Below, piece after piece: positions 1,126 to 43,655 of a stretch of 64,000 bases of DNA. A program made the translations under genes and the position numbers. The stretch comes from Eubacterium limosum. GTDB lineage: Bacteria > Bacillota > Clostridia > Eubacteriales > Eubacteriaceae. Numbering within the stretch: the stretch's first letter is position 1; the number at the start of each line of letters is the position of its first letter. Under the pieces are notes generated by a model. It saw only the letters and a program-made list of their open reading frames with translations, made no database searches and was not told the DNA's origin. The DNA is taken from assembly GCF_000807675.2 (NCBI RefSeq), contig NZ_CP019962.1:4313157-4377156 (forward strand). Reading direction: 5' to 3'.

Positions 1126-1145
1126 AAGTTAGTTATGCTTAACTT
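1126..1145. promoter_or_regulatory. operator-like inverted repeat, copy 1
   Basis: AAGTTAG-ttatgc-TTAACTT: outer six-base arms AAGTTA/TAACTT are perfect, with a G/T mismatch at the inner edge. The same GTTAG-N6-CTAAC layout occurs at 3257-3272 and 43638-43653. Here it sits nine bases past the -10 box, an arrangement repeated at the DUF3793 promoter. The regulator is unknown. Confidence 0.6.
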
Positions 1146-1477
1146 AAGCAGCTAAACTGAACAACAACACACTCTCTGATTAATGCAGCCAATCAGATGA
1201 AGATTATCGAAGCACAGCGATAATCACTCACCGTAACATGTGAGAAGTATTCCTATTAAGACAAATCCTTTTAACAATCAACTTCGTTCAAATACCAATG
1301 AATTGTTTAATCCACTTTCAAAAGCTGCTGAAACTAACTTATTAATTTCTTCAAAAGTGTTTCGGGAAATGATACTCCTTCTTTTGGAGCCTGCCAAGGG
1401 CAGGCAGGCTCCTTTCCCAACACATCCAATTAACCTCTCTTGAATTGATGAATGCTATCATTCATTGTTCATTAAAC

Positions 1478-1508
1478 AGCCTGCAGGCTTTACTGACAGG
1501 CTTTTTTT
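1478..1508 (+). terminator. intrinsic terminator of the candidate ncRNA
   Basis: AGCCTG (1478-1483) pairs with CAGGCT (1497-1502), 13-nt loop, then seven T. On the other strand it lies just past the stop of the ATC-hydrolase-like gene and could also end that transcript. Confidence 0.7.
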
Positions 1509-1510
1509 AT

Positions 1511-2125
1511 TTAGACTTTATAAAAGCTCAGCTCGCAATAATCATCTCCCTGCCCTTTATAATAAGGACGACTAAATCCAACTTTATCTTCCATACCTTC
1601 AAAAGCAGTTTTTTCAAATTCACAAAATAAAGGAGCTAAAATGACGCAATCATTTGCTTTTAAAACATCAAAAAATAGACAGGCTTTAATATCAAAGCAC
1701 AACTTGCTGCGTGTATTTTCAATCAATTCAATATCCCATTCTTTTTCAGAAAAATAATCGCTATAACCTTCCGCTACCTTTTTTCGATAGTTCGCAAAAA
1801 AGAACGGCGTTGACGACAGCCTCTCCAGCTCTCTAGACATTAAAACAGCATACCCTTTCATAAGCGCTTTTAATATTTCCTCGGTTTGCTGCCATGAAAT
1901 TTTTATCTTAAGCAATGCCTGATATAACGCTATTGTGCGCAGCACAATCTCCCGCATCTGCGGCAGCTCGCCCTTTGTCTCTTCAGACGATTCTTTTGTC
2001 AGCAAAGCATCGTAGCTAAGCTCAAAAGACCTGTAGGCTTTACCTCCTCTTTCAGTTCCGAGCATTTCCAAAAGCAATAATCTGCATTTTTCAAGTAATT
2101 CCTGTTTATTGATTGCCGCTCTCAT
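1511..2125 (-). CDS. L-2-amino-thiazoline-4-carboxylate hydrolase-like protein
   Basis: A 204-residue soluble protein that looks like the ATC-hydrolase family (PF14196 type). The supporting part is the C-terminal segment around residues 178-202 (GFSRPYYKGQGDDYCELSFYK), which fits the family pattern of an Arg followed by G-x-D-x-C-D/E-F/L-x-F/Y, with the preceding helical half rich in Leu and Glu. Many such proteins next to regulators or flavodoxins are uncharacterised, so the hydrolase activity is not assured here. It is the third gene of the leftward group DUF3793, flavodoxin, ATC-like, but a hairpin terminator separates it from the flavodoxin, so it may be read through only in part. Confidence 0.6.
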   Translation of the reverse strand: MRAAINKQELLEKCRLLLLEMLGTERGGKAYRSFELSYDALLTKESSEETKGELPQMREIVLRTIALYQALLKIKISWQQTEEILKALMKGYAVLMSRELERLSSTPFFFANYRKKVAEGYSDYFSEKEWDIELIENTRSKLCFDIKACLFFDVLKANDCVILAPLFCEFEKTAFEGMEDKVGFSRPYYKGQGDDYCELSFYKV

Positions 2126-2151
2126 ATTTTGTCCTTTCTAAGATGAATAAC

Positions 2152-2175
2152 AAAAAGGCCGGATCTCTGCCGGCC
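2152..2175 (-). terminator. terminator after the flavodoxin gene
   Basis: On the minus strand GGCCGG-cagagat-CCGGCC followed by TTTTTG. It lies between the flavodoxin stop and the ATC-hydrolase-like start, so it ends or attenuates the DUF3793-flavodoxin transcript. Confidence 0.75.
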
Positions 2176-2182
2176 TGTAAAA

Positions 2183-2611
2183 CTAAAACTGCGCAAATCC
2201 TTTTCCAAAGTCAACGCACTCTTCCTCACCATCACTATCTGGTGTTTCCTGAATAATCAGCCCTTCGTCATAAAGCACTGCCCCAGCTTCACGAACACGA
2301 TCCTCCCAGTCTCTCATCCATTCACCGTCGCCCCAGCCGTAAGAGCCAAACAAAGCCACTTTTTTATCTTTTAAGTTGGCTTCAATATCCGTAAAGAACG
2401 GATCAAAATCGCCTTCTTCAAGCACTTCTGCCCCCATCGACGGACATCCGAAAACAATATGATCATAATCCGCGATTTTGTCTTTGCTAAAATCCGTTAC
2501 AAAAAAAGTCTCTGAACTTTTCCCACCTTTTTCAATACCGTCCGCAATACGATTGGCCATTAATTCTGTATTTCCTGTGCCGCTCCAATAAATAACTGCA
2601 ATTTTATCCAT
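2183..2611 (-). CDS. flavodoxin
   Basis: A 142-residue short-chain flavodoxin, a small cytoplasmic FMN electron carrier. The phosphate-binding loop SGTGNTE is at residues 10-16. The acidic, aromatic segment FGSYGWGDGEWMRDW (about 88-102) forms the second FMN-binding loop with the Tyr/Trp that stack on the isoalloxazine ring. Flavodoxins commonly replace ferredoxin under iron limitation, which fits the neighbourhood (DUF3793 upstream in the same operon, FeoA genes across the divergent promoter). The operon carries an operator-like repeat at its start site. Confidence 0.93.
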   Translation of the reverse strand: MDKIAVIYWSGTGNTELMANRIADGIEKGGKSSETFFVTDFSKDKIADYDHIVFGCPSMGAEVLEEGDFDPFFTDIEANLKDKKVALFGSYGWGDGEWMRDWEDRVREAGAVLYDEGLIIQETPDSDGEEECVDFGKGFAQF

Positions 2612-2635
2612 TTTTATTCTCCTTTAATGATTTTA

Positions 2636-3199
2636 TCAACCAGCTTGCATTAATTGTCTGATTGAGGCTCCCCGATTAATATAGCTGCAAACTACATCTC
2701 GGCATTTTGTATATTTTTCAAATAATTTCAATTTATTTTCAACGTCCGAATATACCTTCCAACAACCACACACCTGGCAGTTTTTTCCCTTATTGAGGAT
2801 AAACCCTTCAACATCTTCTATGGGATATCCCAGAAAAACACCAATTTCGTGTGGAAAATCTCCTGTTGCACTTACATTTTTTTTAAGGTTATCCAGCAGT
2901 TCATTAAAAGTCATATTTTCTTGATAACCATATTTTTCTAAAAAGTTTATTACTTTTGGTTCTTTAAGACTCTCTGTAAGCTTCTTTTTTTGATAAACCA
3001 GAACCAATACGCGACGTTCTGTTTCCCATAACGGTTCAAGGTATAAACCTTTATGATTCAAAAAGGCATTATACTCAGATAACAAATCTGAAATATCTGC
3101 AAACTGCTTCTTTGCGCAGCAGATGAGATTCGCTTCTTTTATTCCCATCAGGGTTGGGGCACAATGAAAACCCAGTAATTTATCAAAATCATTCAGCAT
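2636..3199 (-). CDS. DUF3793 family protein
   Basis: A 187-residue protein of the DUF3793 family, whose members typically sit beside flavodoxin and Feo genes in anaerobic Firmicutes. Recognisable signs are an N-terminal HCAPTLMGIKEANL segment, the central FPHEIGVFLGYPIEDVEGF motif and the Cys-rich end CQVCGCWKVYSD followed by a Cys about 20 residues later. The Cys and His residues suggest metal or cofactor binding, but no biochemical role is known to me. It is the first gene of the leftward operon with the flavodoxin; its promoter and operator lie at 3254-3312. Confidence 0.85.
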   Translation of the reverse strand: MLNDFDKLLGFHCAPTLMGIKEANLICCAKKQFADISDLLSEYNAFLNHKGLYLEPLWETERRVLVLVYQKKKLTESLKEPKVINFLEKYGYQENMTFNELLDNLKKNVSATGDFPHEIGVFLGYPIEDVEGFILNKGKNCQVCGCWKVYSDVENKLKLFEKYTKCRDVVCSYINRGASIRQLMQAG

Positions 3200-3253
3200 C
3201 TGTCTTATTTCCCCTTTTATATGTTCAATGATTCCAGCGTTAACTTTGGAATT

Positions 3254-3276
3254 ATTGTTAGTGCTAGCTAACTAAC
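3254..3276. promoter_or_regulatory. operator-like inverted repeat, copy 2
   Basis: GTTAG (3257-3261), six bases, CTAAC (3268-3272), extended to TAAC on the right. Read on the minus strand it begins about eight bases after the -10 box of the DUF3793 promoter, the same geometry as copy 1 at 1126-1145. Confidence 0.6.
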
Positions 3277-3283
3277 TGAAAAC

Positions 3284-3312
3284 ATCTTAGCACGCGTTTT
3301 TTATTCTGTCAA
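3284..3312 (-). promoter_or_regulatory. sigma-A promoter of the DUF3793-flavodoxin operon
   Basis: On the minus strand TTGACA (3312-3307), 17-bp spacer, TAAGAT (3289-3284). The start site near 3277 falls at the edge of the operator-like repeat. Confidence 0.75.
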
Positions 3313-3399
3313 TACCTTTTCATTAAATAGGAATGATTATAAATTAGTTAATATTACGCTATTTTTTCTCTCGAAATTGAATCAATCGCTAAATTCTTC

Positions 3400-3428
3400 T
3401 TGACAATATTATCACAAAAGGTTAAACT
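3400..3428 (+). promoter_or_regulatory. sigma-A promoter of the FeoA-led operon
   Basis: TTGACA (3400-3405), 17-bp spacer, TAAACT (3423-3428). The roughly 55-nt leader that follows holds a weak hairpin (AGATGC/GCATCT, 3443-3448/3466-3471) and two CTAAC half-sites but no full GTTAG-N6-CTAAC repeat. Confidence 0.7.
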
Positions 3429-3491
3429 TTAAACAAGATATCAGATGCGGCTAACATTTTTATGAGCATCTAACTGAATTAGGAGGTATGA

Positions 3492-3710
3492 ATGATGCCG
3501 TTAAGTATGGCCCGTATGGGAGAACCAGTAAGAATAATGAAAATTAATGGTAAAGATGAAACAAAACGTTTTTTAAATAGTTTGGGATTTGTTATTGGTG
3601 ATAATGTCACTGTCGTTTCTCAACTAGGCGGCAACATGATCATCAATGTTAAAGATACACGAGTTGCAATTGATAAATCAATGGCAAATCGAATAATGAT
3701 CAACGAATAA
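3492..3710 (+). CDS. FeoA family protein
   Basis: A 72-residue SH3-like FeoA protein: MPLSMARMGEPVRIMKINGKDETKRFLNSLGF shows the family pattern of an N-terminal strand, the G-x-x-x-x-R/K-F-L-x-x-L-G-F turn, then VTVVSQLGGNMIINVKDTRVAIDKSMANRIMI. FeoA normally assists the ferrous-iron permease FeoB, yet no feoB is nearby. An AGGAGG site precedes two possible ATG codons, 3492 and 3495; the second has the better spacing. A second FeoA follows after 6 bp. Confidence 0.9.
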   Translation: MMPLSMARMGEPVRIMKINGKDETKRFLNSLGFVIGDNVTVVSQLGGNMIINVKDTRVAIDKSMANRIMINE

Positions 3711-3716
3711 GGAGAT

Positions 3717-3944
3717 ATGAATATGAAAACTTTAAAAGCCACTCCATGTGGTCAAACAGTAAAAGTTGTAAAAATTGAAAACAAAGGGCCAATCAAACGT
3801 CGTATTATGGATATGGGAATTACCAAAGGTGTCGATATATTTGTCCGAAAGGTTGCTCCTTTAGGCGACCCGATAGAAGTAACAGTACGAGGTTATGAGC
3901 TATCACTTAGAAAAGCTGACGCCGAAAGTATTATTGTAGAGTAA
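3717..3944 (+). CDS. FeoA family protein, second copy
   Basis: A 75-residue FeoA-domain protein in tandem with the first. The family signature is GPIKRRIMDMGITKGVDIFVRKVAPLGDPIEVTVRGYELSLRKADA, with the typical R-x-x-M-G-I turn and the GDP-[IL]-x-V-x-[VL]-RGYELSLR-K-x-[ED]A end. This copy matches canonical FeoA more closely than the upstream one. It is preceded by AAGGAGA. About 90 bp separate it from the next gene, but no terminator is visible, so all genes to 10456 probably form one transcript. Confidence 0.93.
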   Translation: MNMKTLKATPCGQTVKVVKIENKGPIKRRIMDMGITKGVDIFVRKVAPLGDPIEVTVRGYELSLRKADAESIIVE

Positions 3945-4032
3945 TTTTATTTTATGTTTTTGTTAGTTTTTTCTAATCATGTATAGATAGTAAAACAAAT
4001 ATCGAGTGGACTAATTTATAAGGAGTATAATT

Positions 4033-4275
4033 ATGAAGAATGTTTTAGAAAATGATAAGTTGACTTTTTTTATTGGCGGTATTGCGGCGGCCACTCTTGG
4101 TGTAAAAGCTTTAAAGAGTAAATGCGCCCATAAATTCTTTGTAAGTGCTTTAGCCTCTGGTATGAAATTGCAGGATGATGCTAAAGTGATGTATGAAAAT
4201 ATCAAGGAAGATGCTGTTGATCTCTGTTATGAAGCAAAACTCGAGTCAAAAAAAGCTGAATCTGCTGGAGAATAA
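4033..4275 (+). CDS. DUF6110 family small protein
   Basis: An 80-residue protein with one hydrophobic segment near the N terminus (about residues 12-25, FFIGGIAAATLGVKAL), then a basic patch, a second amphipathic helix FFVSALASGMKLQDDAKVMYENIKEDA and an acidic/Lys-rich tail. This layout is the DUF6110 pattern, found directly upstream of heavy-metal P-type ATPases in Clostridia. The AAGGAG site and 14-bp gap to the ATPase fit co-translation. It may be an ATPase accessory or regulatory subunit; that is inference from gene order. Confidence 0.7.
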   Translation: MKNVLENDKLTFFIGGIAAATLGVKALKSKCAHKFFVSALASGMKLQDDAKVMYENIKEDAVDLCYEAKLESKKAESAGE

Positions 4276-4289
4276 GGAGTAGTCAGACT

Positions 4290-6380
4290 ATGAAATACAC
4301 CATCGTTCACGATATGCCTGGACGCATTCGTCTGCGTTGCGGGCGTAATGCTTTTTCTCTTGATGAAGGCTACAGTATAACTTCTGTTTTGATGGCACAA
4401 ACCATAGTTACCGACGCAAAGGCTTCCAGTATCAACGGAAGCCTTTTAATTTTTTATATCGATGACTCCCGTTCTTTACTTTTAGACTTCATTGATACTT
4501 TAGTGCCTGCAGAACTTCCCGTCATACCGCCAGCCGAGAGAGACACCACTTCTGAAGTTGACGCAGGCTTTCAATATGCGCTTGCGTTTAGAATTGTCCG
4601 CCGATTACTTTTCCGGGGGCTTCTTCCCTCTCCTGTCCGTCATGTAATCACTTTATTCCGCGCTGTCCCCTATGTTGTGCGCGGAATAAAGAGCTTGCTT
4701 AATTTCCGTATTAATGTCGATGTTTTAGATGCATCCTCCATTGGCGTTTCTTTAGCACAGGGAGATTATGGAACCGCAAGCTCCATTATGTTTCTCCTGT
4801 CGCTTTCAGATTTACTGGAAGACTACACAAGAAAAAAAACAAAGCTTGCCCTGGCAGGAAGCTTGTCTGTCAATGTTGACACCGTATGGAAACAGGATAG
4901 TTATGGCAACTTTATAAGCACACCCATCAGCCAGCTTGAAGAGGATGATACTATTATTGTCCGTACCAGCGGCACAATCCCAGTAGATGGTACTATCTGT
5001 GAGGGTGAAGCCTACATTAACGAAGCCTGTATGACGGGCGAATCTCAGTCCGTTTTAAAAAAAGCGGAGGATTCAGTCTATGCAGGAACCGTCGTTGAAG
5101 ACGGCAGCATTGTTATAAAGGTACGTGCTATTGGAAACGGGACTCGTATGAACAAAATCATCGAGCTTATTGACCAATCTGAAAACCTGAAAGCAGATGT
5201 ACAGAGCCATGCCGAAAATTTAGCGGACTCCATTGTTCCCTTTAGCTTTCTGGCATCTGGTCTGGCGTTTTTACTCACCAGAAACGCGACAAAAGCGGCC
5301 TCTGTCCTGCTGGTTGACTACTCCTGCGCCATCAAACTTGCAACACCGATCTCCGTCATCTCAGCTATGCGTGAAGCTGCAAACCATAAAATCGTGGTAA
5401 AGGGTGGGAAATTTCTCGAATCTTATGCTCTGGCAGATACCATTGTTTTTGATAAAACCGGAACGCTCACCGTTGCCTCTCCAAGTGTCAATGAGGTTAT
5501 TTCGTTTCCACCGTATAATAGGACAGAGGTTCTGAAAACCTCGGCCTGTCTTGAAGAGCATTTCCCTCACAGTGTTGCTCACGCCATTGTTCACAAAGCA
5601 GAACAGGAAAATCTAAAGCATCGTGAAGAACATGCCGAAGTAGAATATGTCGTTGCACATGGGATTCGTTCAAAGCTTCACGGCAAAAAGGCGCTTATTG
5701 GCAGCTACCATTTCATTGTAGAGGATGAAGGGATTCCCGTAACGCCAGAACAAAAATCCATCATCGAAGAAAAAGGTCATGGCAAATCGGCGATTTTCTT
5801 AGCTTTGGGTGACGCATTGGCCGGAATGATCTGTATTGATGACCCTCTCCGTCCAGAAGCTGCTGAAACCATACAAGCACTCCGCGAATCTGGCATAAAG
5901 AAAATTATCATGCTCACTGGCGACAGTGATGAAGCCGCGAGAGACGTCTCAGCCCAGCTTGGCATTACGGAATACCAGGCGCAAATTTTACCAGAAGACA
6001 AGGCATCAGTCATCGAGCGTCTGAAGGAAGATGGCCACCAGGTTATCATGGTGGGTGACGGCATTAATGATTCACCGGCTTTAGCCGCTGCAAATGTCTC
6101 TGTTTCCATGAAAGATTCCTCTGATATTGCCCGTGAGGTTGCTGATATTACGTTGCTCAGCACAGACCTCAGAGCGCTTGTTACTTTGCGGCACCTCAGC
6201 CTGTCTTTAATGGAACGCATCCAAAAAAATTTCCATGTCATCATTGGATTTAACAGCCTGCTGCTGGCAGGCGGGCTCATTGGATTTATTCCTCCTGCTA
6301 CCTCTGCCTTTTTACACAATTTTTCTACAATGTTTATCAGCGCGGCCAGTATGCGGCCCTGCTTAAAACCACCTGTATGA
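4290..6380 (+). CDS. heavy-metal translocating P1B-type ATPase
   Basis: A 696-residue membrane ATPase. The N terminus has an HMA2-like metal-binding fold remnant (HDMPGRIRLRCGRNAF). The actuator TGES is near residue 249 (MTGESQSV), the phosphorylated Asp in DKTGT is D388, and the hinge GDGINDSPA begins near 589. The transmembrane metal site, usually CPC or SPC, reads Ser345-Cys346-Ala347 (YSCAIKLATP), so the transported ion cannot be guessed from the classical classes. The VDVLDASSIGVSLAQGDY-type segment puts it in the CtpC/ZosA-like group. Its operon with FeoA proteins and CydDC-like exporters suggests iron, manganese or heme-linked metal homeostasis, probably efflux. It is 14 bp after DUF6110. 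Confidence 0.88.
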   Translation: MKYTIVHDMPGRIRLRCGRNAFSLDEGYSITSVLMAQTIVTDAKASSINGSLLIFYIDDSRSLLLDFIDTLVPAELPVIPPAERDTTSEVDAGFQYALAFRIVRRLLFRGLLPSPVRHVITLFRAVPYVVRGIKSLLNFRINVDVLDASSIGVSLAQGDYGTASSIMFLLSLSDLLEDYTRKKTKLALAGSLSVNVDTVWKQDSYGNFISTPISQLEEDDTIIVRTSGTIPVDGTICEGEAYINEACMTGESQSVLKKAEDSVYAGTVVEDGSIVIKVRAIGNGTRMNKIIELIDQSENLKADVQSHAENLADSIVPFSFLASGLAFLLTRNATKAASVLLVDYSCAIKLATPISVISAMREAANHKIVVKGGKFLESYALADTIVFDKTGTLTVASPSVNEVISFPPYNRTEVLKTSACLEEHFPHSVAHAIVHKAEQENLKHREEHAEVEYVVAHGIRSKLHGKKALIGSYHFIVEDEGIPVTPEQKSIIEEKGHGKSAIFLALGDALAGMICIDDPLRPEAAETIQALRESGIKKIIMLTGDSDEAARDVSAQLGITEYQAQILPEDKASVIERLKEDGHQVIMVGDGINDSPALAAANVSVSMKDSSDIAREVADITLLSTDLRALVTLRHLSLSLMERIQKNFHVIIGFNSLLLAGGLIGFIPPATSAFLHNFSTMFISAASMRPCLKPPV

Positions 6381-6402
6381 TCGATTATCTGAAAGGAGTT
6401 TT

Positions 6403-6777
6403 ATGAAAACACTTTATCTTATTATTGGTTTTTTATTCTTCGGGCTTGGAGCCATCGGTGTTATCTTGCCGGTGCTCCCAACCACCCCTTTCCTTCTTGT
6501 CGCAAGCTATTGCTTCGCGCGGGGCAGCAAGCGGTTTAATGACTGGTTTTTGAGTACCAAAATTTATCAAAAACATCTGGACAGCTTCGTTAAGGAACGA
6601 GCCATGACACTGAAAACTAAGATTTCGCTTCTGTCCTTTGCATCCGCTATGCTGATCCTGGCCTTCTGTCTGGTCGATGTCATTTATGCGCGTATCCTCA
6701 TCATTGCGGTAATGATTTTTAAATACTACTACTTCATCTGTAGGATTAAAACCATTCAGGAGGTACAGAATGATTGA
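6403..6777 (+). CDS. YbaN family (DUF454) inner-membrane protein
   Basis: A 124-residue protein with about three membrane helices. The start LIIGFLFFGLGAIGVILPVLPTTPFLLVASYCFARGSKRFNDWFL is the DUF454/YbaN hallmark (G-x-x-G-x-x-LPVLPTTPFLL-x-A-x-[CY]FA-R-x-S). It lies 22 bp after the ATPase behind a GAAAGGAG site and overlaps the next ABC gene by 8 bp. YbaN has no firmly known function; genes of this family often accompany heme or metal exporters, which fits here. Confidence 0.88.
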   Translation: MKTLYLIIGFLFFGLGAIGVILPVLPTTPFLLVASYCFARGSKRFNDWFLSTKIYQKHLDSFVKERAMTLKTKISLLSFASAMLILAFCLVDVIYARILIIAVMIFKYYYFICRIKTIQEVQND

Positions 6778-24092: not shown

Positions 24093-24107
24093 GGATTTAT
24101 TGAACAA

Positions 24108-24205
24108 ACTCTGATGGCCTTAACCTAAATACAGGCTTCCAAAATCACCTGTCCATGGTTTTGCCACGATAGGGTAATGCTGGAAACGGCTTTACCTTCC
24201 GTATT
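24108..24205 (+). ncRNA. Moco-family (molybdenum/tungsten cofactor) riboswitch candidate
   Basis: The leader of the substrate-binding-protein gene resembles the E. coli moaA Moco RNA as I remember it: a 5' CTCTG start, a CCT-[TA]AAC-[CT]AAATAC-like strand, a stem ACAGG/CCTGT (24131-24135/24148-24152), then TTGCCAC, a long stem GGTAA-T-GCTG closed by a GAAA tetraloop with CGGC-T-TTACC (24173-24195), and TTCCGTATTTGAAAAGG at the 3' end, which mirrors TCCCGTATCTGGAAAGG of E. coli. The 3' edge runs into the AAAAGGAG ribosome-binding site (24208-24214), which suggests control of translation. The shorter central arm could mean a tungsten-cofactor (Tuco) variant. The operon content (metal-anion importer, XdhC) agrees. 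The resemblance was judged by eye and needs a covariance-model search. Confidence 0.6.
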
Positions 24206-24221
24206 TGAAAAGGAGTAAAAA

Positions 24222-25262
24222 ATGAAAAAAAAACTGCTATGTATGATTCTGGCCCTTACTTTGATTTTAAGTGTGACTGCCTGCAGCCCTAAGCAGGACG
24301 CCTCATCCGACAAAACCTTCGGCGAAATCAAGGTCACAGACGCCATTGGACGCGAGGTTACTCTTACCGCACCGGCGACCAAGGTGGTGGGAACACATAA
24401 TCCATCCCTAAATACCGCAGTTGTCATTGGCGGCGGCGGAAAGTACATTGCCGGCTTTGGCAACAAGGACATGGCCCGTGGCCTGTATGAGGAAGTAATC
24501 GACGGATACAATGACCTTCCCCAAATTGGTAAGGGCAAAGACATCAATATGGAAACCGTTATGGAATTAGGCGCAGACCTCGCTATTCTGCCTGAGCGTT
24601 TTGCCAGTCAGGCTGACCAGTTTGCCGAAGTTAATGTTCCTGCAGTGGTTGCCCTCCCCAATGATGAAAGTTTTGACACAGTCACGAACTCTTTAAAAAT
24701 TGTGGGAAAGGCTCTGGGTGAAGACAAACGGGCTGAAGAGATCACTTCCTTTATCGATGATAAAATCAACAACATCAGCAAAAAGGTAGGTGCTGCTTCA
24801 GAAAAGCCATCCATTTTGTTTTTAGGCGGCACCAGCTCTCTCACTGTTGCGCCTGACGCCATGATTCAAACTTATATTATCGAAAAGGCTGGCGGCACCA
24901 ATGCGGTCAGCGGTCTGGACAAAAAAGGTGAATTTGCCGATGTGAGCATTGAACAGATTGTAGGCTGGAATCCCGACATCATCTGGGTACCCTCCTACGC
25001 CAAATATAAGGTGGACGATATCTTGAATGACCCAGCCTGGACCAGTATCAAAGCGGTTCAGAACAAAGCCGTTTATGTTTTTCCATCCTCCCTGGAGCCG
25101 TGGGACTACCCCACTGCCTCCTCTGTACTGGGTGTCTGCTGGGCAGCCAATAATCTCCACGGAGATCTTTACAACTCAGATGATTTTATGAAGGATGTCG
25201 ATGCCTTCTATCAGATGGTCTATGGCAAAACCTTTACCAAGGAACAGCTTGGGCTTCAATAA
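24222..25262 (+). CDS. ABC transporter substrate-binding lipoprotein, probable molybdate/tungstate type
   Basis: A 346-residue lipoprotein: signal peptide ending in the lipobox SVTAC (Cys near residue 21), then a class III (FecB/BtuF-like) two-lobed binding protein with a single connecting helix. Recognisable stretches are the start ITDAIGREVTLTAPATKVVG-like segment, DINMETVMELGADLAIL, and the end PWDYPTASSVLGVCWAANNLHGDLY. This fold serves siderophores, B12 and, in the MolBCA branch, molybdate and tungstate. The Moco-type leader and downstream XdhC point to the oxyanion; that substrate is an inference. It is the first gene of the operon 24222-27916. Confidence 0.82.
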   Translation: MKKKLLCMILALTLILSVTACSPKQDASSDKTFGEIKVTDAIGREVTLTAPATKVVGTHNPSLNTAVVIGGGGKYIAGFGNKDMARGLYEEVIDGYNDLPQIGKGKDINMETVMELGADLAILPERFASQADQFAEVNVPAVVALPNDESFDTVTNSLKIVGKALGEDKRAEEITSFIDDKINNISKKVGAASEKPSILFLGGTSSLTVAPDAMIQTYIIEKAGGTNAVSGLDKKGEFADVSIEQIVGWNPDIIWVPSYAKYKVDDILNDPAWTSIKAVQNKAVYVFPSSLEPWDYPTASSVLGVCWAANNLHGDLYNSDDFMKDVDAFYQMVYGKTFTKEQLGLQ

Positions 25263-36228: not shown

Positions 36229-37977
36229 TCAGGCAATCCTCCAGCCCTCAGCCGCTTCTCGAATATCGACAAACTGCCTGTAGATTCCCTTTTCCAGAAT
36301 AAGCTGTGCATGGGTTCCGCGCTGGGCGATCCGTCCGTTATCTACAACCAGTATCTGGTCGGCATGCTCGATGGTTGCCAGTCGGTGGGCAATGACGATG
36401 ATGGTCTTTCCATTTGTCAAAGAGGAAATTGCCTCCTGTATAAAGTGCTCGTTTTCCGGGTCAACACTGGCAGTGGCTTCATCCAGTATTATGATCGGCG
36501 CATCCTTCAGGATAGCCCGGGCAATGGATATTCTCTGCTTTTCGCCGCCGGACAGTGAGGAACCGCCCTCGCCCACCAGTGTGTTGTAACCATCGGGCAG
36601 GGCTGTGATAAACGCATGGCACTGTGCCTCCTTTGCGGCTCTTATGACTTCCTTCATATCCGCATCGGGATTGCCAAAACGGATATTATTTAAAATGGTG
36701 TCGTGAAAAAGGTAAACGTTCTGGAATACCATACTGATATTTGAGAGCAGACTGTCGCAGGTCAACTCCCGGATATCCATGTTCCCGATGGTAATGGCGC
36801 CGCTGTTTACATCGTAAAAGCGGGCCAGCAGGCTGCAAATTGTGGTTTTACCGCTGCCAGAGGGGCCTACAATAGCTGTGGTTGTTTTTTCGGGAATATC
36901 AAAGCTGACATTTTCCAGAACCGTCCATCTGTTATAACCAAAGCTCACATCATTAAAGGTGATATTAAAGTTATCCGGCTTTTTATCCTTTCCGTTTTCA
37001 TCAATAAATTTTGCCTTTTCAATTTTGTCCAGCTTTTCAAACGTCGATTCAATCAGCTCCATGGTATGGGCCGCATTGTTGATCTGCTCGACATGCGTAA
37101 AAATCATAAAGGAGAAAACCGCAAACATTAAAAAGACCGGCACAGCCATGGCGCCCTCCGCGGTAAAAACAGCTGCCGCTGCCGCTACTGCCACCGACGC
37201 AAGCTTCAAACAAAACTGATGAAGACAGTTGCAGGGAATGTAGTCCAGCTCGATCTTCACATTGATGCGCCGGTGTTCCCTGCAGGCCCGCTTCATCCCC
37301 TCGACAGAAACGCCTTCCTGTCCATAGGCCTTTACGACTGCCAGGCCCCTTATGTATTCCAGCGTTGCTGCTATGAGATCATTCTGGGCCTCCTGATGTA
37401 CGGCTGCATTTATCCGGCTTCTGCGGCTCAGTATTCTCAGAAAGAAGGCCGAACCTAAAACGCCGGCAACTGCAATCAGGGCGATCTGCCAAGAATAAAA
37501 AGCCAGGCAGAGAATAATGGCCAGTGCGCTGATATAGCCGCCGACCACCACATCGGTCATCTTCATGGCGTACATCTCCAAAACAGACAGGTCCGTGGTT
37601 ACTGCCCCGGCAAGCTCCCCTGTATTATTACGGTCAAAAAAGCCAAGGGAAACTCTTTTCAGAATATCACCGATCCGGATGCGCTCCTCGGCGGTTTTTT
37701 CATAGGCGATGCTCTCCTGAAAGGTCGCCTTGAGATATGAAAACAGAAAGCGCCCAAGGATCATCCCAACCATAAAGATAAGAAACCAAAGGGCCCAGAC
37801 AGGTGTCAGAACAATTTCTCCACGCTGATCCTCCAGCATAAGCTCCAGCCCGTAGGCAGCGCCGATAACAGGCATTGCTGTAAAAATACTCTGTAAAAAG
37901 GACCAGAGGAACCCCCAGTATAAGCGGTTTTTACGTCCGCCAGTCCATTTTATAATGTGTCTGATGGTTTTAAGCAT
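36229..37977 (-). CDS. ABC half-transporter, IrtAB/YbtPQ-like, second subunit
   Basis: A 582-residue exporter-fold half-transporter: six membrane helices (1-300) and an NBD with Walker A GPSGSGKTT, signature SLSGGEKQR, Walker B IIILDEATASVD and switch His in IAHRLATIE. The DEATASVDPENE/DEATAFTDPENE pair of this and the upstream subunit is like siderophore-type transporters YbtP/YbtQ and IrtA/IrtB, which import metallophores despite an exporter fold. It overlaps its partner by 8 bp and is the last gene of the leftward ECF operon that starts at 43617. Confidence 0.88.
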   Translation of the reverse strand: MLKTIRHIIKWTGGRKNRLYWGFLWSFLQSIFTAMPVIGAAYGLELMLEDQRGEIVLTPVWALWFLIFMVGMILGRFLFSYLKATFQESIAYEKTAEERIRIGDILKRVSLGFFDRNNTGELAGAVTTDLSVLEMYAMKMTDVVVGGYISALAIILCLAFYSWQIALIAVAGVLGSAFFLRILSRRSRINAAVHQEAQNDLIAATLEYIRGLAVVKAYGQEGVSVEGMKRACREHRRINVKIELDYIPCNCLHQFCLKLASVAVAAAAAVFTAEGAMAVPVFLMFAVFSFMIFTHVEQINNAAHTMELIESTFEKLDKIEKAKFIDENGKDKKPDNFNITFNDVSFGYNRWTVLENVSFDIPEKTTTAIVGPSGSGKTTICSLLARFYDVNSGAITIGNMDIRELTCDSLLSNISMVFQNVYLFHDTILNNIRFGNPDADMKEVIRAAKEAQCHAFITALPDGYNTLVGEGGSSLSGGEKQRISIARAILKDAPIIILDEATASVDPENEHFIQEAISSLTNGKTIIVIAHRLATIEHADQILVVDNGRIAQRGTHAQLILEKGIYRQFVDIREAAEGWRIA

Positions 37978-39745
37978 CGGTCAATTCTCCTTTCATCTCT
38001 TTTCCCGCTGCCCAACATCTGGCACCGACATGGGCCTGCCACATATCCCGGTACAGTGTACAGCATTCCAGGAGCTCCTGCTGTGTGCCCTCAGCTGTAA
38101 TCTGCCCCTTTTCCAAAACGACAATTCTGTCAGCATTCTGGATGGTTGACAGCCGGTGCGCAATGACCAGCAAGGTTTTTCCCTCCGTCAGCGCTGCGAT
38201 GGAACGCTGCAGCTGTGCCTCGTTTTCTGGATCTGTAAAGGCTGTGGCCTCGTCAAGGATAACCACCGGGGCATTCTTCAGAATCGCCCGGGCAATGGCG
38301 ATGCGCTGGCGTTCGCCACCGGAAAGCTTTCCGCCGGCTTCTCCCGCGGTTGTATCCCAGCCCTTTTCCAGACGGCTGATAAAGTGCTCGCACTGGGCCG
38401 CCCTAGCCGCCTCAAAAACTTCCTCGTCGGTAGCTGACGGTTTACCAAGCCGGATATTTTCAAGCAATGAACAGTTAAACAGAAAATTATCCTGGGTGAC
38501 AAAGCTCACTGTATCCGCAAGCTGAGACAGTGGGATTTTTCTTATATCAACACCTCCGATGGAAATACTTCCATCCCTCACATCCCAGAACCGGGCAATC
38601 AGCCGGGCAACTGTCGATTTCCCGCCGCCTGAAGGACCGACCAGCGCAGTAAAGCTGCCCTGCGGCAGATGCAGACTGATATTTCTGAGCACATCGCCGT
38701 CCCTGTCATTGTAGGCAAAGCTCACGTCCTCCAGCACGACCGTGTAGTGCTCCAGACAGACGTTCTCCTTTTCCTCCGGGAGCTCTGGAAGCTCCATCAG
38801 CTGATTGACATCGTTAATGGCATACTGGATGGATTTAAAATCATTAACCGCTGTGGTGAACCAGCTCACCGGACCCACAATACTCATGGAGAGAATCATG
38901 CACAGGGTCAGCTCCGCAGGTGTGAGCGCACCGTAAATATACAGAAGCATTCCCACCGGCAGGATACCAAGCAGGGTACTGGGCAGAATGGCGTTTCCCA
39001 GATTCATCACCCCCCAGGTCGAGCGGAACCAGTCAAGGGTAAAGTCCTTGAAATCTCCCACTGCCCTGGTAAATTTCTCATATGAGCTCGAGGACTGGTT
39101 AAAGGCCTTGATGACCTGTATCCCCTCGACATACTCCACGATCACACTGTTGACATGGCGGCTGGATTCCATGAATCTGGCGTACTGGCTGTTATAGTTG
39201 CGCATCATAATGGCATAAACCAGTGCTCCGGGCGGAATACAGGCCAGCGATGCCAAGGCAATGCGCCAGTCAATGCTGATCATATAAATAAATACACAGA
39301 CCGGCAGCAGCAGATTTGAAATTCCCTCTGGAATCAGGTGGCCCAGCGGAAGCTCAATGGTTTCTACCCTGTCGACAAAAATACTTTTAAGATCGCCAGC
39401 CGTTTTGGACAAAACTGTTCCGAGGGGCGCACGCATCAGCTTATCGGTCAGCGCCAGACGGATACTCTCTAAAATCTGATATGCCGACATATGGGAAAAG
39501 GTTGTTGAAATGCCGTAAAACACCAGCTTTACGATGTACCCTGTCACACACACCGCCGCCCAGGCCAGAATGCTCTGTACTTCGGGCGTCCCCTTAAAAA
39601 ACAGCAGGATTATCTGATAGACGCCGAGATAAGGCACCAGCCCACCCAGCACACTGACCACAGCGCATATCACAGACAAAAGCATCTTTGTCCTGCACTC
39701 AGCTGCAAACGAGAAGATGCTCTGAAAGGTTCCTTTTTTCTTCAT
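37970..39745 (-). CDS. ABC half-transporter, IrtAB/YbtPQ-like, first subunit
   Basis: A 591-residue partner of the preceding entry. Six membrane helices and an NBD with Walker A GPSGGGKST, signature KLSGGERQR, Walker B VVILDEATAFTD and switch His in IAHRLSTIQ, all canonical, so both ATP sites should be active. The DEATAFTDPENEAQ end is typical of siderophore-related ABC proteins. It lies 64 bp after the AraC gene with AGGAGG before its start and no strong terminator in between. Confidence 0.88.
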   Translation of the reverse strand: MKKKGTFQSIFSFAAECRTKMLLSVICAVVSVLGGLVPYLGVYQIILLFFKGTPEVQSILAWAAVCVTGYIVKLVFYGISTTFSHMSAYQILESIRLALTDKLMRAPLGTVLSKTAGDLKSIFVDRVETIELPLGHLIPEGISNLLLPVCVFIYMISIDWRIALASLACIPPGALVYAIMMRNYNSQYARFMESSRHVNSVIVEYVEGIQVIKAFNQSSSSYEKFTRAVGDFKDFTLDWFRSTWGVMNLGNAILPSTLLGILPVGMLLYIYGALTPAELTLCMILSMSIVGPVSWFTTAVNDFKSIQYAINDVNQLMELPELPEEKENVCLEHYTVVLEDVSFAYNDRDGDVLRNISLHLPQGSFTALVGPSGGGKSTVARLIARFWDVRDGSISIGGVDIRKIPLSQLADTVSFVTQDNFLFNCSLLENIRLGKPSATDEEVFEAARAAQCEHFISRLEKGWDTTAGEAGGKLSGGERQRIAIARAILKNAPVVILDEATAFTDPENEAQLQRSIAALTEGKTLLVIAHRLSTIQNADRIVVLEKGQITAEGTQQELLECCTLYRDMWQAHVGARCWAAGKEMKGELTDA

Positions 39746-39809
39746 GCTTTCGCCTCCTAAAAATAATAACGGACAGTCCTTTTTTAAGAACCATCCGTAT
39801 TATACTCAA

Positions 39810-40805
39810 TCATTGCGCTTCCTGTCTGCTCCGTTCCTGCCAATGCTGATCCATTCGGACGACGGATTTACGATACTCTGCCGGACACATGCCCATAACG
39901 GATTGAAAAGCTGCTGCAAATTTACTCGGGTTTTCATAGCCTACCCGGTTGGCAATGGAAACGACATTTTCATTGGTTTTCTGGAGCATAAGCGCAGCGG
40001 CGTTCATCCGGTATTCCTTCATATAGGCATAAATAGAGGTTCCATAAACACCTTTGAAACAAAGCTTCATAGAGGTGAGCGGAAACTCAAAGCGTTCAGA
40101 GAGCTCTTTTAACGTGTAATGCCGCTCCAAATTGTCGGTCAAAAGCCGGACGATGGCTTTGACTTTTTCGACCTGTGTTTTGTGAAAATAAGGGCGCTCG
40201 GCACTCTTCTGGGCAACCTCCAGCGCATCCAAAAACAAAAGGAGTTCAAGCACCTTGATCTTAAAATAGCTCATCCTCAAATGCTCAGGGACAGTGTAAA
40301 GCTCTGAAAAGATGTGCTCCACCCCTGCGCCTGCCCGCATGACAAAGGGGTGCTCATCCCCGCAGAATTTCTCTCGGATTTTTGCGAGGTCAACAGGAAA
40401 CCCCTCCAGGACATGCGGCAGAACCTTCATGGCTTTTTCCATATAAAAACCAACAGTGATGCCATGATAGTGCTTTAAGGGAAAGCTGAAATCACAGACG
40501 TGATGCTTTCGGTTATTCATCTGCAGATCTCCGGCTTCCAGGTATATGAATTTATTTTTTACGATCGCCCACTCAATCCGTCCCTCCCGGCAGTGGTCGA
40601 TACAGAACAAGTCTACATCAGGCTTGAACTCTGAAAAGCATTTTTCCATATGAAAATCATTATAAAGGAGATAAACCCCCGGGAATACATCGTAGGCAGT
40701 CATCACCCCTTCGCCGCTGTCCTCATTTACCTGGTAAACCGTACAGCTTTCATCTTTACAGATCAGCGAAACGTTTGGGCCCATTGCTTCCCGGTCAAAA
40801 TGCAT
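39810..40805 (-). CDS. AraC family regulator, PchR/YbtA-like position
   Basis: A 331-residue regulator started at 40805 (MHFDREAMG), nine bases after AAGGAGG; the frame stays open to 40832. The N-terminal part (about 1-220) is a sensor with the GRIEWAIVKNKFIYLEAGDLQMNNRK stretch typical of the Firmicute PchR-like group; the C-terminal AraC double HTH (about 235-325) reads YTLKELSERFEFPLTSMKLCFKGVYGTSIYAYMKEYRMNAAALML and VVSIANRVGYENPSKFAAAFQSVMGMCPAEYRK. It overlaps the end of the ECF ATPase gene by 11 bp. As PchR and YbtA sense siderophores, this protein may sense the substrate of the surrounding transporters. Confidence 0.9.
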   Translation of the reverse strand: MHFDREAMGPNVSLICKDESCTVYQVNEDSGEGVMTAYDVFPGVYLLYNDFHMEKCFSEFKPDVDLFCIDHCREGRIEWAIVKNKFIYLEAGDLQMNNRKHHVCDFSFPLKHYHGITVGFYMEKAMKVLPHVLEGFPVDLAKIREKFCGDEHPFVMRAGAGVEHIFSELYTVPEHLRMSYFKIKVLELLLFLDALEVAQKSAERPYFHKTQVEKVKAIVRLLTDNLERHYTLKELSERFEFPLTSMKLCFKGVYGTSIYAYMKEYRMNAAALMLQKTNENVVSIANRVGYENPSKFAAAFQSVMGMCPAEYRKSVVRMDQHWQERSRQEAQ

Positions 40806-42294
40806 GGTGTCTGCCTCCTTCCCCGTCCTCACTGTTTTTTAAAAAGAAAGAAAGCATCCTGTCCCTCCCTGCTGCGCTAAGGGGGTAATTTCCCACCAGC
40901 CTGCCTTGGTCGATATGAAGGATATGCGTACAGCAGGACAGGATAAACTCAGGGTCATGGGTGACAACAAAGACTGTTTTGCCCTGCTCTGAAAGGCCGC
41001 GTATATCGCTGGATACCTCACGCATGTGCCGAAGATCCAGCCCGCTGGTCGGTTCATCAAAAACAATAATCTCCCGCTGTGAGGCGATGGCTGAGGCCAC
41101 CGCGACACGCTGCTTCTGTCCGCCCGACAACGCCATGGGGTGTTTTTCCTTATAGACCAGCAGGTCGAGGGACTCCAGGATGGAAGCTGCCCGTTCCGGT
41201 GCCTCCTGCTTCATAGAGAGCAGCACCTCGTCCAGCACGCTCTCAGTAAAAAGCTGGTGGTTGACATCCTGCATAACCATATAGCAGGCCGACAGCCGTT
41301 TTTTAGATTTAAGCGCTGTACCTTTATAGCGTACAATCCCTTTATCTTTTTTCTGCAGGCCGCAAAGGCTCCGCGCAAAGGTGGACTTACCCGCGCCGTT
41401 ATGGCCGATGATACCGATAACACCACGCTCTGGCACATCGGCCTGTCCGATGGACAGCGCCGGCGGACAATGGGGATAGGCAAACTGAAACCGCTCAAGC
41501 CGCATGGTCTTCTCGTCGCTGAGTCCGGCCACCTTTATTTCTGAAAGACCAGACATAGAAAGTGCCCTCAGACCCATCTCCTCCAGTCTGCTGTTCGGCA
41601 GCCTGTAAAATTCCCGACCTGTGTAGGTCTTGTCAATCCGGCCTTTTTTCATACAGACCACCCTGTCCGCCAGGCCCTCCAGATAATACAATCGGTGCTC
41701 TGCCACCACAATGGTCTTTCCCTGCGCTTTCCACCGGCGGATGACTCTTCTCAACTCCTTTATGGCAGCGGTATCCAAATTGGATGAAGGCTCATCCAAA
41801 ACCATGACCTCCGGGTACAGCGCCGCCACAGACCCGCAGGCAATCTTCTGCTTTTCGCCGCCTGAAAGCTTAAAAATATTCCTGCCACAAAGCGAATTAA
41901 GCCCAAAGGCTTCGGTGGTGTTTTTCAGCCGTCTGTATATCTCATCCTCTGGCAGGCCCAGATTTTCACAGCCAAAGACCAGCTCGCTGGTGGTATCCAC
42001 ATTAAAAAACTGCGACCGGGGATTTTGGAACACAGATCCGACCATTTTTGCTGTTTCGTACAAAGGAGCACTCCTTACATCCAGGCCGTTAACCACGACA
42101 CTGCCGGACAGAACACCCTCGTAGTAATGCGGGATTAAGCCGTTGATCAGCCGGGTCACTGTTGTTTTGCCGCATCCCGATTCACCACACAATAAAATGA
42201 TTTCACCATCGGCGATGGTAAGGTTGAGACTGTCCAAATCAACCTCTTTTTTGTCCCGCCCGTAAGAAAAACATACGTCTTCAAATATAATCAT
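40795..42294 (-). CDS. fused double-ATPase of an ECF transporter (EcfA-EcfA')
   Basis: I start at 42294 (MIIFEDVCFSYG) behind GAGGTGAG. The 499-residue protein holds two ABC ATPase domains. First: Walker A GESGCGKTT, signature LSGGEKQKI, Walker B VMVLDEPSSNLD. Second: GHNGAGKST, LSGGQKQRV, IIVFDEPTSGLD. Fusion of the two ECF ATPases in one chain is common for this subfamily. It powers the T and S components encoded just upstream and overlaps the AraC start downstream. Confidence 0.92.
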   Translation of the reverse strand: MIIFEDVCFSYGRDKKEVDLDSLNLTIADGEIILLCGESGCGKTTVTRLINGLIPHYYEGVLSGSVVVNGLDVRSAPLYETAKMVGSVFQNPRSQFFNVDTTSELVFGCENLGLPEDEIYRRLKNTTEAFGLNSLCGRNIFKLSGGEKQKIACGSVAALYPEVMVLDEPSSNLDTAAIKELRRVIRRWKAQGKTIVVAEHRLYYLEGLADRVVCMKKGRIDKTYTGREFYRLPNSRLEEMGLRALSMSGLSEIKVAGLSDEKTMRLERFQFAYPHCPPALSIGQADVPERGVIGIIGHNGAGKSTFARSLCGLQKKDKGIVRYKGTALKSKKRLSACYMVMQDVNHQLFTESVLDEVLLSMKQEAPERAASILESLDLLVYKEKHPMALSGGQKQRVAVASAIASQREIIVFDEPTSGLDLRHMREVSSDIRGLSEQGKTVFVVTHDPEFILSCCTHILHIDQGRLVGNYPLSAAGRDRMLSFFLKNSEDGEGGRHHAF

Positions 42295-42301
42295 ACTCAC
42301 C

Positions 42302-43036
42302 TCACAGAAGCGCAAATTTATTCAAAACAAATGCCGCCAGACTGCCAACGCACAGAACAATGGCCAGAATATCGGCCAGCCGGAAACCAATCCGGCAAAT
42401 ATTTGTCCGCGGCACAGGTGCGCCTAGTCCCCTTGTCAGAGCGGCTGCCGAAAGCTCCTCTCCGATCTTCACACAAGACATCATAAGAGGCACCAGACGG
42501 TATTCAAGCATGGCGCCTGCCTTGCCGCCGCCAAAGCGGATACCCCGCATCCGCATAGCGTCTCCGATGGCTCCGTACTCTTCCCGGACTGTTGGGAAAA
42601 AGCGAAATATAACCGACATTGGGATGGATAATTTCGGGGTAACGCGCATCCGGGCCATAGCTGCCATAAAGGCGCTGACCGTGGTGGTATTTACCAGGAA
42701 ATACCCCATCATGATCCCGGGCATAAACCGGGCAAACAGGCCGCAGGTCGCAACGATGATAAAATTCAAAAAACCTGTGGTGACAGGCACCAAAAACAGT
42801 TCGCCACAGAAGGCCGCCGTGTAAGTTGCTAAATACACAAAAGCCGCCCCCCGCTTTTTTGAGGCCAGCAGCAGCATAAAGGGAACCAGTGTGAGGGCCG
42901 GCTTGACAAAATTCATGACACCACCATTCCCCCCACCGATAACAACCGTGGAAACAGTGATAACCAGAAGCATTTTTGTCCTTGGATCAAGCGACAGACC
43001 GCCAGACACATCCGCGTTGGTACGCGCCTTTGCCAT
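42302..43036 (-). CDS. ECF transporter T component (CbiQ/EcfT family)
   Basis: A 244-residue membrane protein with about five helices and the EcfT coupling motifs: MRMRGIRFGG near residue 175 (the first A-R-x-x-R/G-type motif) and SAAALTRGLGAP near 212 (second). The N-terminal LSLDPRTKMLLVITVSTVV is the usual start of the family. It joins the S component to the ATPases. It overlaps the S gene by one base. Confidence 0.88.
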   Translation of the reverse strand: MAKARTNADVSGGLSLDPRTKMLLVITVSTVVIGGGNGGVMNFVKPALTLVPFMLLLASKKRGAAFVYLATYTAAFCGELFLVPVTTGFLNFIIVATCGLFARFMPGIMMGYFLVNTTTVSAFMAAMARMRVTPKLSIPMSVIFRFFPTVREEYGAIGDAMRMRGIRFGGGKAGAMLEYRLVPLMMSCVKIGEELSAAALTRGLGAPVPRTNICRIGFRLADILAIVLCVGSLAAFVLNKFALL

Positions 43037-43617
43037 CAGACAATCCCTGCTTTCATAAAGTGCTTTTTAAGCACTGACTTGCCCAACAGAGCCCCTAAAA
43101 CACCGGAGATAAAGCAGGCGGCCAGAAGCGGCAGAAGACTCCAGTCGGGAATGTAGGCCATGAGCGTGTTGGCATACTCCTGTCCATATCCAGAAACCAG
43201 CATATCAAAATAGCTTCCCCGGTTGACTACAATGGGAATGTAATTGCCGATAAGCCACATGGAAAATACACCGTAGCTTAAAACACCCTTTCTGGAACTG
43301 GTGTAATCACCGGATTTTAGTACCAGTTCTGCCAGCAGACCGCTAACCGGCGCGGTAATCAACGCCCACACACCCATGCCCATCAGACACATGATAATAC
43401 CGATGATGGCAGCCATGATAAGCACCATCCCAAACTTTCTAACCCTTGTCAAAAACAGCATGAAGGGTATCCCGCCCACAAAGGGAACGATCACGGAGAG
43501 CAACGGTATAAAAATAGGAATATAGCCAATCATAGCTACACCCATACAGATAACCAAAAGAATGGCGGTGAAAATGCCCACATTAATCAGGTCCTTTGCC
43601 TGAAGCTTATTATTCAT
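43036..43617 (-). CDS. MptD/Trep_Strep family ECF substrate-binding S component
   Basis: A 193-residue membrane protein with about six helices. The start KLQAKDLINVGIFTAILLVICMGVAMIGYIPIFIPLLSVIVPFVGGIPFMLFLTRVRKFG and the middle SGLLAELVLKSGDYTSSRKGVLSYGVFSMW are the Trep_Strep/MptD pattern. No member of this family has an established substrate that I can name with certainty; systems of this type have been proposed for heme or metal chelates. First gene of the leftward operon (S, T, AA, AraC, ABC, ABC), with an operator-like repeat directly upstream. Confidence 0.85.
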   Translation of the reverse strand: MNNKLQAKDLINVGIFTAILLVICMGVAMIGYIPIFIPLLSVIVPFVGGIPFMLFLTRVRKFGMVLIMAAIIGIIMCLMGMGVWALITAPVSGLLAELVLKSGDYTSSRKGVLSYGVFSMWLIGNYIPIVVNRGSYFDMLVSGYGQEYANTLMAYIPDWSLLPLLAACFISGVLGALLGKSVLKKHFMKAGIV

Positions 43618-43635
43618 ATAAATTTCCTCCCGTTT

Positions 43636-43655
43636 TAGTTAGTTATATCTAACTA
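43636..43655. promoter_or_regulatory. operator-like inverted repeat, copy 3
   Basis: TAGTTAG-ttatat-CTAACTA, perfect seven-base arms, 19 bp upstream of the S-component start. It is the cleanest of three GTTAG-N6-CTAAC sites. A possible -10 (TATAAC, minus strand) lies inside it. Confidence 0.65.

Follow-up and report, generated by a model that had tools for sequence, protein, structure and literature searches.

A putative DtxR-type iron operator upstream of a non-coding RNA, a flavodoxin operon and a transporter cluster in Eubacterium limosum

Background

The closest described counterparts of the system considered here are the IdeR and DtxR regulators of Actinobacteria and EqbA, a DtxR-like repressor of Streptococcus equi. 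In the IdeR study, the 19-mer TTAGGTTAGSCTAACCTAA is made up of four CCTAA repeats and binds two dimers, and TTAGGNNNNCCTAA is proposed as the unit for a single dimer (PMC8464063). For EqbA, binding to the eqbB promoter is reported to have risen with cations and the candidate operator contains GTTAGATGTATCTAAC (PMC3672683). The present work concerns a 64,000-nucleotide stretch of the genome of Eubacterium limosum (GCF_000807675.2, contig NZ_CP019962.1, positions 4,313,157 to 4,377,156 of the forward strand), referred to below as the window, in which three inverted repeats built on GTTAG-N6-CTAAC precede a non-coding RNA (ncRNA), a DUF3793-flavodoxin operon and a cluster of energy-coupling factor (ECF) and ATP-binding cassette (ABC) transporter genes.

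The acetogens Eubacterium and Acetobacterium depend on iron-rich enzymes. No prior description of DtxR-based iron control in acetogens, including E. limosum and Acetobacterium woodii, was found in open-licence PMC papers. An initial annotation of the window proposed that one regulator, probably metal-responsive, controls all three transcription units, held that the repeats could not be DtxR boxes because the latter have a 1-base spacer, and assigned the transporter cluster to metal or heme acquisition. The current analysis indicates that the three repeats are, in all likelihood, operators of a single iron regulon read by a short DtxR-family repressor belonging to the orthologue group of the E. 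limosum protein 3176834.

Results

All three repeats were found in the sequence where the initial annotation had reported them, and each was recovered in the genome pattern scans. Operator 1, AAGTTAGTTATGCTTAACTT (1126-1145, plus strand), lies over the inferred transcription start of the ncRNA, whose promoter consists of TTGACA (1089-1094), a 17-base spacer and TATACT (1112-1117). The repeat begins 8 bases past the -10 box, and its core (1128-1143) has one mismatch to GTTAG-N6-CTAAC. Operator 2, TTAGTTAGCTAGCACTAACAAT (3254-3275, minus strand), contains the exact core GTTAGTGCTAGCTAAC at 3257-3272 and follows the promoter of the DUF3793 operon (TTGACA at 3312-3307, TAAGAT at 3289-3284) by 7-11 bases. 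Operator 3, GTAGTTAGATATAACTAACTAA (43635-43656, minus strand), is an extended 22-mer with the exact core GTTAGTTATATCTAAC at 43638-43653, the end of which is 20 bases from the ATG of the first gene; no good -35 box was seen 5' of it. Operator 1 and the core of operator 2 are kept in the relatives G023, G024 and G025, and the ncRNA promoter of the divergent relative G026 has an exact copy, GTTAGTATATACTAAC, over its -10 box, as seen by eye.

The objection based on the 1-base spacer fails because the DtxR/IdeR box is itself two overlapping TTAG-N6-CTAA units, one per dimer, so that the one-dimer unit has the same spacing as the repeats in the window; moreover, the best candidate reader is a DtxR-family protein. 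Judged by its sequence, the box falls within a known type, but the full 19-mer is absent.

The genome of 4.42 Mb holds four exact cores, compared with 1.85 expected from a first-order Markov model, and two of them are in the window. All four lie in non-coding DNA within 150 bp 5' of a gene, a category accounting for about 6% of the window, and they precede ahpC (473560), an ABC pair (2613508), the DUF3793 gene (4316413) and the Trep_Strep gene (4356794). The longer palindrome, TTAGTTAG-N6-CTAACTAA, a 22-mer scanned with up to three mismatches, occurs at 11 places genome-wide, eight of them 5' of genes discussed here and three within open reading frames (ORFs). When one mismatch to the core was allowed there were 28 places, comprising ten before named genes, one before an encapsulin-ferritin pair, one before a DUF6110/P1B operon, 11 within ORFs and five in other intergenic DNA; the last group was 5' of enolase, malic enzyme and rpsM genes (names assigned by eye) and at two places without a clear gene start.

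Several of the sites outside the window lie at genes of iron and heme metabolism. The gene for feoB, located elsewhere in the genome, has two sites 27 bp apart (3061053 and 3061080; locus L023). In locus L020, a site at 2077383 precedes the gene for a NEAT surface protein and another, at 2077755, precedes two divergent tandem regulator genes, behind which come NEAT, Shp and Peripla_BP_2 genes. Further sites belong to an AraC gene and an ABC pair (2612452 and 2613505; L022) and to ahpC-ahpF (473557; L021). A one-mismatch site at 1061284 lies 70 bp 5' of the first start codon of an EncFtn-like/encapsulin pair (L030:7285-8556), which suggests that iron storage may be part of the regulon. A one-mismatch site within the window, at 3962-3977, is 5' of the operon encoding DUF6110, P1B-ATPase, DUF454 and double ABC proteins, with a feoA pair on its other side. 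The initial annotation had suggested scanning the genome for sites before metal or heme genes; sites do precede iron, heme and iron-saving genes, but their number is not above background.

Relatives were searched in 40 genomes of the family, 39 of which had a feoB match. The 30 feoB loci fetched, including that of E. limosum, hold 44 core sites (one mismatch at most) upstream, in about 43 kb, and none downstream, a contrast tempered by the downstream control being coding DNA of unmatched composition and by the possibility that some upstream matches fall in neighboring genes. At least one such upstream site was present in 23 of the 30 loci, and paired sites 27-28 or 35-36 bp apart were seen in nine. 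As a yardstick, two core sites at the same stringency were found in 228 kb of DNA from 22 loci surrounding the regulator gene. In a separate set of 30 pattern loci, one per genome and again including E. limosum, 16 had an exact core. It was 5' of feoA or feoB in six (L071, L075, L080, L085, L086, L095), 5' of Trep_Strep or AraC-ABC genes in another six (L070, L081, L087, L092-L094), with an AraC gene near the Trep_Strep clusters, and 5' of DUF3793-flavodoxin genes in L098. In L097 the exact core lies between two genes, one for a ZIP-family metal transporter and one, divergently oriented, for a response regulator, and in two relatives (L079, from G010, and L088) it precedes a DUF2325 gene, whose product may be part of the iron response. 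Operators precede iron-uptake genes across genera. With the same site at feoB, the NEAT/heme genes, the AraC-ABC genes, ahpCF and the encapsulin-ferritin pair, and at feoAB, Trep_Strep and DUF3793-flavodoxin genes in relatives, the earlier proposal of one metal-responsive regulator for the three units is upheld, the metal being most likely iron.

Three DtxR-family proteins (E <= 0.001) and one Fur-family protein are encoded in the genome. G000:C1:3176834 is a short DtxR-family protein that matches PF01325 (E 5.4e-16) and PF02742 (E 3.5e-16), both above the cut-off, and it thus has an N-terminal winged helix and a metal-binding dimerisation domain but not the length to accommodate a C-terminal SH3 domain. 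Its profile matches the structures of MntR, IdeR and DtxR, with the C-x-x-E-H metal motif kept. Orthologues (58-99% identity) occur in 34 of the 40 family genomes, that of E. limosum included, and the carriers include Eubacterium callanderi, E. aggregans, E. barkeri and several Acetobacterium species. In nine genomes (G024, G001, G002, G004, G010, G011, G016, G018 and G019) the orthologue is the sole match of either DtxR query (E <= 1e-5), and the same nine have feoB operators. In two uncultured Eubacteriaceae its gene is separated from feoA by 0.35 and 1.5 kb (L222 and L221, respectively). G007 and G030 have no DtxR match, and each has a single 22-mer match (three mismatches at most); the feoB locus of G030 is siteless. 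Protein 3176834 is therefore put forward, on these comparisons, as the most likely reader of the operator.

Other readers were considered and rejected. The gene for a TetR protein (140-796) adjoins the ncRNA, but the sites precede unrelated genes in other genera. The Fur-family protein is the product of a single gene and is closest to PerR models, below the cut-off; the Fur motif also differs from GTTAG-N6-CTAAC. AraC proteins are present beside only some of the target groups. A parallel between the DtxR recognition helix and drift of the motif in genera g7 and g8 was merely suggestive and was not used.

Several observations weigh against the assignment. The site counts are at background, with 11 core matches (two mismatches at most) in the window where 17.4 were expected, and 28 places genome-wide (one mismatch at most) compared with 73 for a reversed control pattern, so the case rests on position and neighboring genes. 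Seven of the 30 feoB loci (G036, G031, G030, G028, G027, G022 and G020) lack a site with one mismatch or fewer; six of them have two-mismatch forms and G030 has nothing. Fourteen of the 30 pattern loci had no exact core and no recognised relative of a regulon gene. G006 has perfect operators and no DtxR match. Operators are also found in G012 and G026, where the DtxR matches are distant paralogues only (36-39%). All three assemblies are, however, incomplete (80-86%, G006 being 86% complete). Conversely, the orthologue is present in G039, where no 22-mer match was obtained and the only sites are cores with zero or one mismatch. Paralogues that do not belong to the main orthologue group sit beside an operator in G026, G031 and G039, which suggests that DtxR paralogues may share it, and the other two DtxR-like proteins of E. 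limosum, 3813080 and 2077805, could bind the same site. No site was noted close to the 3176834 gene in its own genome. Finally, a 60% identical orthologue is found outside the family, in a Mycoplasmatota genome (L225), with no operator in the 12-kb locus.

The transcript under operator 1 is a structured RNA of about 385 nucleotides (1124-1511, plus strand; both ends inferred) that closes with an intrinsic terminator, an AGCCTG hairpin followed by a T-run (1478-1508). Its fold has a z-score of -5.8 relative to shuffled sequences, and that of the G026 homologue is -6.3. The RNA is 94-100% identical in G023-G025 and divergent in G026, where the TetR neighbor is kept. A coding function was rejected because every one of the three forward frames contains stops. 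An open stretch of about 68 codons exists in one of them, but its first half has no ATG and G026 does not keep it. Rfam has no family at the gathering threshold, only weak matches (E 0.55 or more). The available text of a transcriptome study of E. limosum, supplement excluded, reports 93 ncRNAs and has no mention that we could find of this one (PMC5651825).

In the 3' module of the RNA, the outer stem and the loop AATGATACTCCTTCTTTT (1368-1385) are kept in G026 and the inner hairpins have changed; most of the loop is predicted to be unpaired, a tendency that is weaker in G026. A covariance model restricted to this module and built from four sequences, three of them near-identical, found it under strict filters in five genomes of the genus among 67 in the order; a match in G037 (E 0.017) was taken as chance, as was a blastn match in G029 to an AT-rich promoter stretch without the operator. 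Two-sided changes were seen in 2 of 21 pairs. The support for structure comes from the fold z-scores and conservation because the covariation term was unfavorable and the sequences are few.

The loop is complementary to a ribosome-binding site. Its complement, 14 bases exact, occurs at one further place in the genome, the ribosome-binding site of a 131-residue Fer4 protein with four Cys clusters (counted by eye); about 0.03 exact 14-mers would be expected by chance over both strands. It is exact at this ferredoxin leader in G024 and G025, has one mismatch in G023 and is not there in G026. The predicted duplex has 20 bp and an energy of -32.2 kcal/mol (-30.0 to -33.5 across four genomes), whereas 281 uncurated ORF starts of the E. 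limosum genome gave values down to -20.8 (mean -10.3, standard deviation 3.2), a comparison that is not independent since the target was picked by complement search. With its promoter under the operator, no coding capacity, a stable fold and an exposed anti-Shine-Dalgarno stretch, the transcript is a candidate iron-sparing small RNA (sRNA), predicted to pair with the ribosome-binding site of the four-cluster ferredoxin mRNA. It might instead be a by-product or decoy transcript that does not act in trans, a possibility to be taken seriously, if not the probable one. The RNA was found in one genus and has one strong predicted iron-protein target, with no clear genome-wide excess of complements; a wider search (18-mer, three mismatches at most) gave 13 places, its own locus included, and 10 for the control, a result that counts against the sRNA. 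Against the by-product reading, G026 keeps the loop and outer stem but not the inner hairpins, the operator is kept or re-made in relatives, and the ferredoxin duplex is preserved in four genomes despite one change in the G023 target and changes in the G025 RNA. In L191, L193 and L195, a one-mismatch loop complement was also noted at the start of an apparent transketolase N-terminal subunit gene, a possible second target.

The metal sensed could be manganese, or manganese and iron together, as in an MntR-type regulon. The best PDB sequence matches of 3176834 and its best NCBIfam model, below the curated cut-off, are MntR, the manganese sensor, and in relatives the possible targets include the ZIP transporter. 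This is nonetheless unlikely, as the putative targets comprise FeoB, heme uptake, flavodoxin and encapsulin-ferritin, and the structure-match alignment places Cys where MntR has Glu in the metal motif. Cys at this position marks an iron-type DtxR site.

Less likely still, the operator would be read by the tandem DtxR-like proteins of 290 and 285 residues, responding to heme, and not by the short protein. Their genes (L020:9806-11513, from G000:C1:2077805; L172:7751-9409 in G026) sit beside NEAT, Shp and substrate-binding heme genes, and the site 28 bp 5' of the start codon in their own promoter resembles autoregulation. Full-length relatives of the 290-residue protein, however, were found only in the E. 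limosum genome and G026 among the 40 family genomes, and operators occur in genomes without them. A DNA-pattern search of genome contigs for relatives of this protein found none, nor did a plasmid search with the 279-residue G026 protein.

The C-terminal part of the 285-residue member has a NEAT fold and an SMA motif. Its Pfam NEAT match (E 0.098, 13.5 bits) and that of the G026 homologue (E 0.0016, 19.3 bits) are both below the cut-off of 32.8, and Pfam NEAT gave nothing for the 290-residue protein, which perhaps has a diverged NEAT-like domain. YxxxY is the heme-binding Tyr motif of NEAT domains; no clear copy was seen by eye in the C-terminal alignment of the 285-residue member. This protein is a candidate intracellular heme sensor. 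To our knowledge, known NEAT domains act outside the cell.

That the palindromes are chance occurrences or unrelated sites of different regulators, as counts at background might suggest, can be practically dismissed, given that all four exact sites precede genes, that the same functions carry sites in other genera, and that the upstream and downstream totals at feoB are 44 and 0.

Operator 3 heads a minus-strand cluster (36-43.6 kb) that encodes a Trep_Strep (MptD-family) ECF S component (43036-43617; PF09605, E 2.2e-60; TIGR02185 above cut-off), a CbiQ-type ECF transmembrane protein (42302-43036; Pfam CbiQ), an ECF ATPase with two ABC domains (40795-42315; two stretches of Pfam ABC_tran), an AraC-family regulator (39810-40832; Pfam HTH_18) and a fused permease-ATPase ABC pair (36229-39745, comprising 37970-39745 and 36229-37977; Pfam ABC_membrane and ABC_tran). 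Since its operator is shared with iron genes, the cluster very probably serves iron acquisition, and the metal half of the original assignment is supported. A role in heme uptake is less probable, given the separate heme locus elsewhere. The core shared with the candidate EqbA operator, together with the DtxR-type box, makes iron-siderophore import the probable function by analogy, and our best guess. No nonribosomal peptide synthetase (NRPS) gene was found among the window proteins scanned. Operator 3 and the site at 2613505 have near-identical flanks, with TATAAC or AATAAC within the palindrome and no good -35 box. A -10-like TATAAC inside the operator without a good -35 box indicates that the cluster's own AraC protein probably activates the ECF-ABC operon, and at both sites this suggests that the promoter depends on AraC and is subject to repression by the DtxR protein. 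We infer that the AraC protein senses a siderophore. Directly 5' of the operon, a second fused ABC pair and a divergent LysR gene occupy 43832-47481; a terminator-like hairpin just before operator 3 parts these genes from the ECF operon.

The operon behind operator 2 runs on the minus strand from the DUF3793 gene (2636-3199; PF12672, E 2e-60) through flavodoxin (2183-2611; PF00258, E 3e-20) to an ATC_hydrolase-family gene (1511-2125; PF14196), the last of the putative operon. Divergent from it are two FeoA-domain genes (3492-3944, plus strand; Pfam FeoA), upstream of which there are only two degenerate half-site pairs (3440-3455 and 3459-3474), with two mismatches each. Elsewhere in the window, Rfam places a molybdenum cofactor riboswitch at 24097-24231 (plus strand) and a cobalamin riboswitch at 59556-59679 (minus strand).

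Discussion

The proposed mechanism is as follows. Under iron sufficiency, a metal-loaded dimer of the 3176834 type would bind TTAG-N6-CTAA over the -10 box and transcription start and block transcription. When iron is short, the repressor would be released and the importers made, namely FeoB, the heme system, the products of the AraC-ABC genes and the ECF-ABC cluster. Flavodoxin would then replace ferredoxin. The ncRNA would be transcribed, and its loop would pair with the ribosome-binding sites of iron-sulfur mRNAs, such as that of the four-cluster ferredoxin, and stop their translation. The ECF-ABC operon would be under dual control, activated by its own AraC protein and repressed by the DtxR protein.

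A wider reading is more tentative, and we regard it as possible rather than probable. The Eubacteriaceae as a family would run a DtxR-based, not a Fur-based, iron-starvation programme from one-dimer boxes, in which the genus Eubacterium would have two unusual branches, a DtxR-repressed sRNA that spares iron by keeping a four-cluster ferredoxin mRNA from being translated and, in some strains, a tandem DtxR-like pair with NEAT-type sensing of intracellular heme. If so, a fold otherwise known as a heme carrier outside the cell would sense heme inside it, possibly a new class of heme sensor. The regulon also suggests a function for the ECF-ABC cluster and an iron context for DUF3793, and it provides a testable candidate for an iron-sparing sRNA in a clostridial lineage.

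The candidate sRNA resembles FsrA, IsrR, MrsI and RyhB in having a promoter with a metalloregulator operator, an exposed C/U-rich stretch directed against a ribosome-binding site and a predicted iron-sulfur target; MrsI is itself predicted to be IdeR-controlled (PMC9410917). Unlike these RNAs, it has no Rfam match, is about 385 nucleotides long, was found in one genus and stands as a candidate. The putative heme sensor shares with the NEAT domains of Isd proteins the fold and SMA motif of its C-terminal part, but in the regulator this domain comes after a winged-helix part, and inspection by eye showed no signal peptide.

Like the MntR of Bacillus, which provides its best PDB matches, 3176834 is a short two-domain DtxR-family protein, but it differs in having iron genes as putative targets and Cys in place of Glu in the metal motif. 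The operators share the TTAG-N6-CTAA spacing of the one-dimer unit TTAGGNNNNCCTAA with the IdeR/DtxR boxes of Actinobacteria (PMC8464063). They differ in that the inner G/C of TTAGG/CCTAA is absent at most of the 11 E. limosum sites, and in that the extended sites have the form TTAGTTAG-N6-CTAACTAA, not a 19-bp double palindrome with a 1-base center; the protein also differs, being too short for the SH3 domain.

EqbA is likewise a DtxR-like repressor, and the candidate eqbB operator has the same core, GTTAGATGTATCTAAC (PMC3672683). The equibactin cluster encodes a ferric-siderophore-like importer, eqbHIJ, on which most iron accumulation depends. It also encodes eqbKL, two fused ABC proteins akin to YbtPQ that import does not require and that may work as an exporter (PMC3672683). 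The fused ABC pair of the window can be likened to YbtPQ/IrtAB by analogy, by way of EqbK/EqbL only. The resemblance between EqbHIJ-KL and the window set (Trep_Strep, CbiQ, double ATPase and fused ABC pair) is one of gene description and may not extend to an identical gene set. The EqbA system, moreover, is one siderophore cluster that carries NRPS genes and resides on a mobile element, whereas the E. limosum operators would define a chromosomal regulon that takes in feoB, heme uptake, flavodoxin, encapsulin and an ncRNA.

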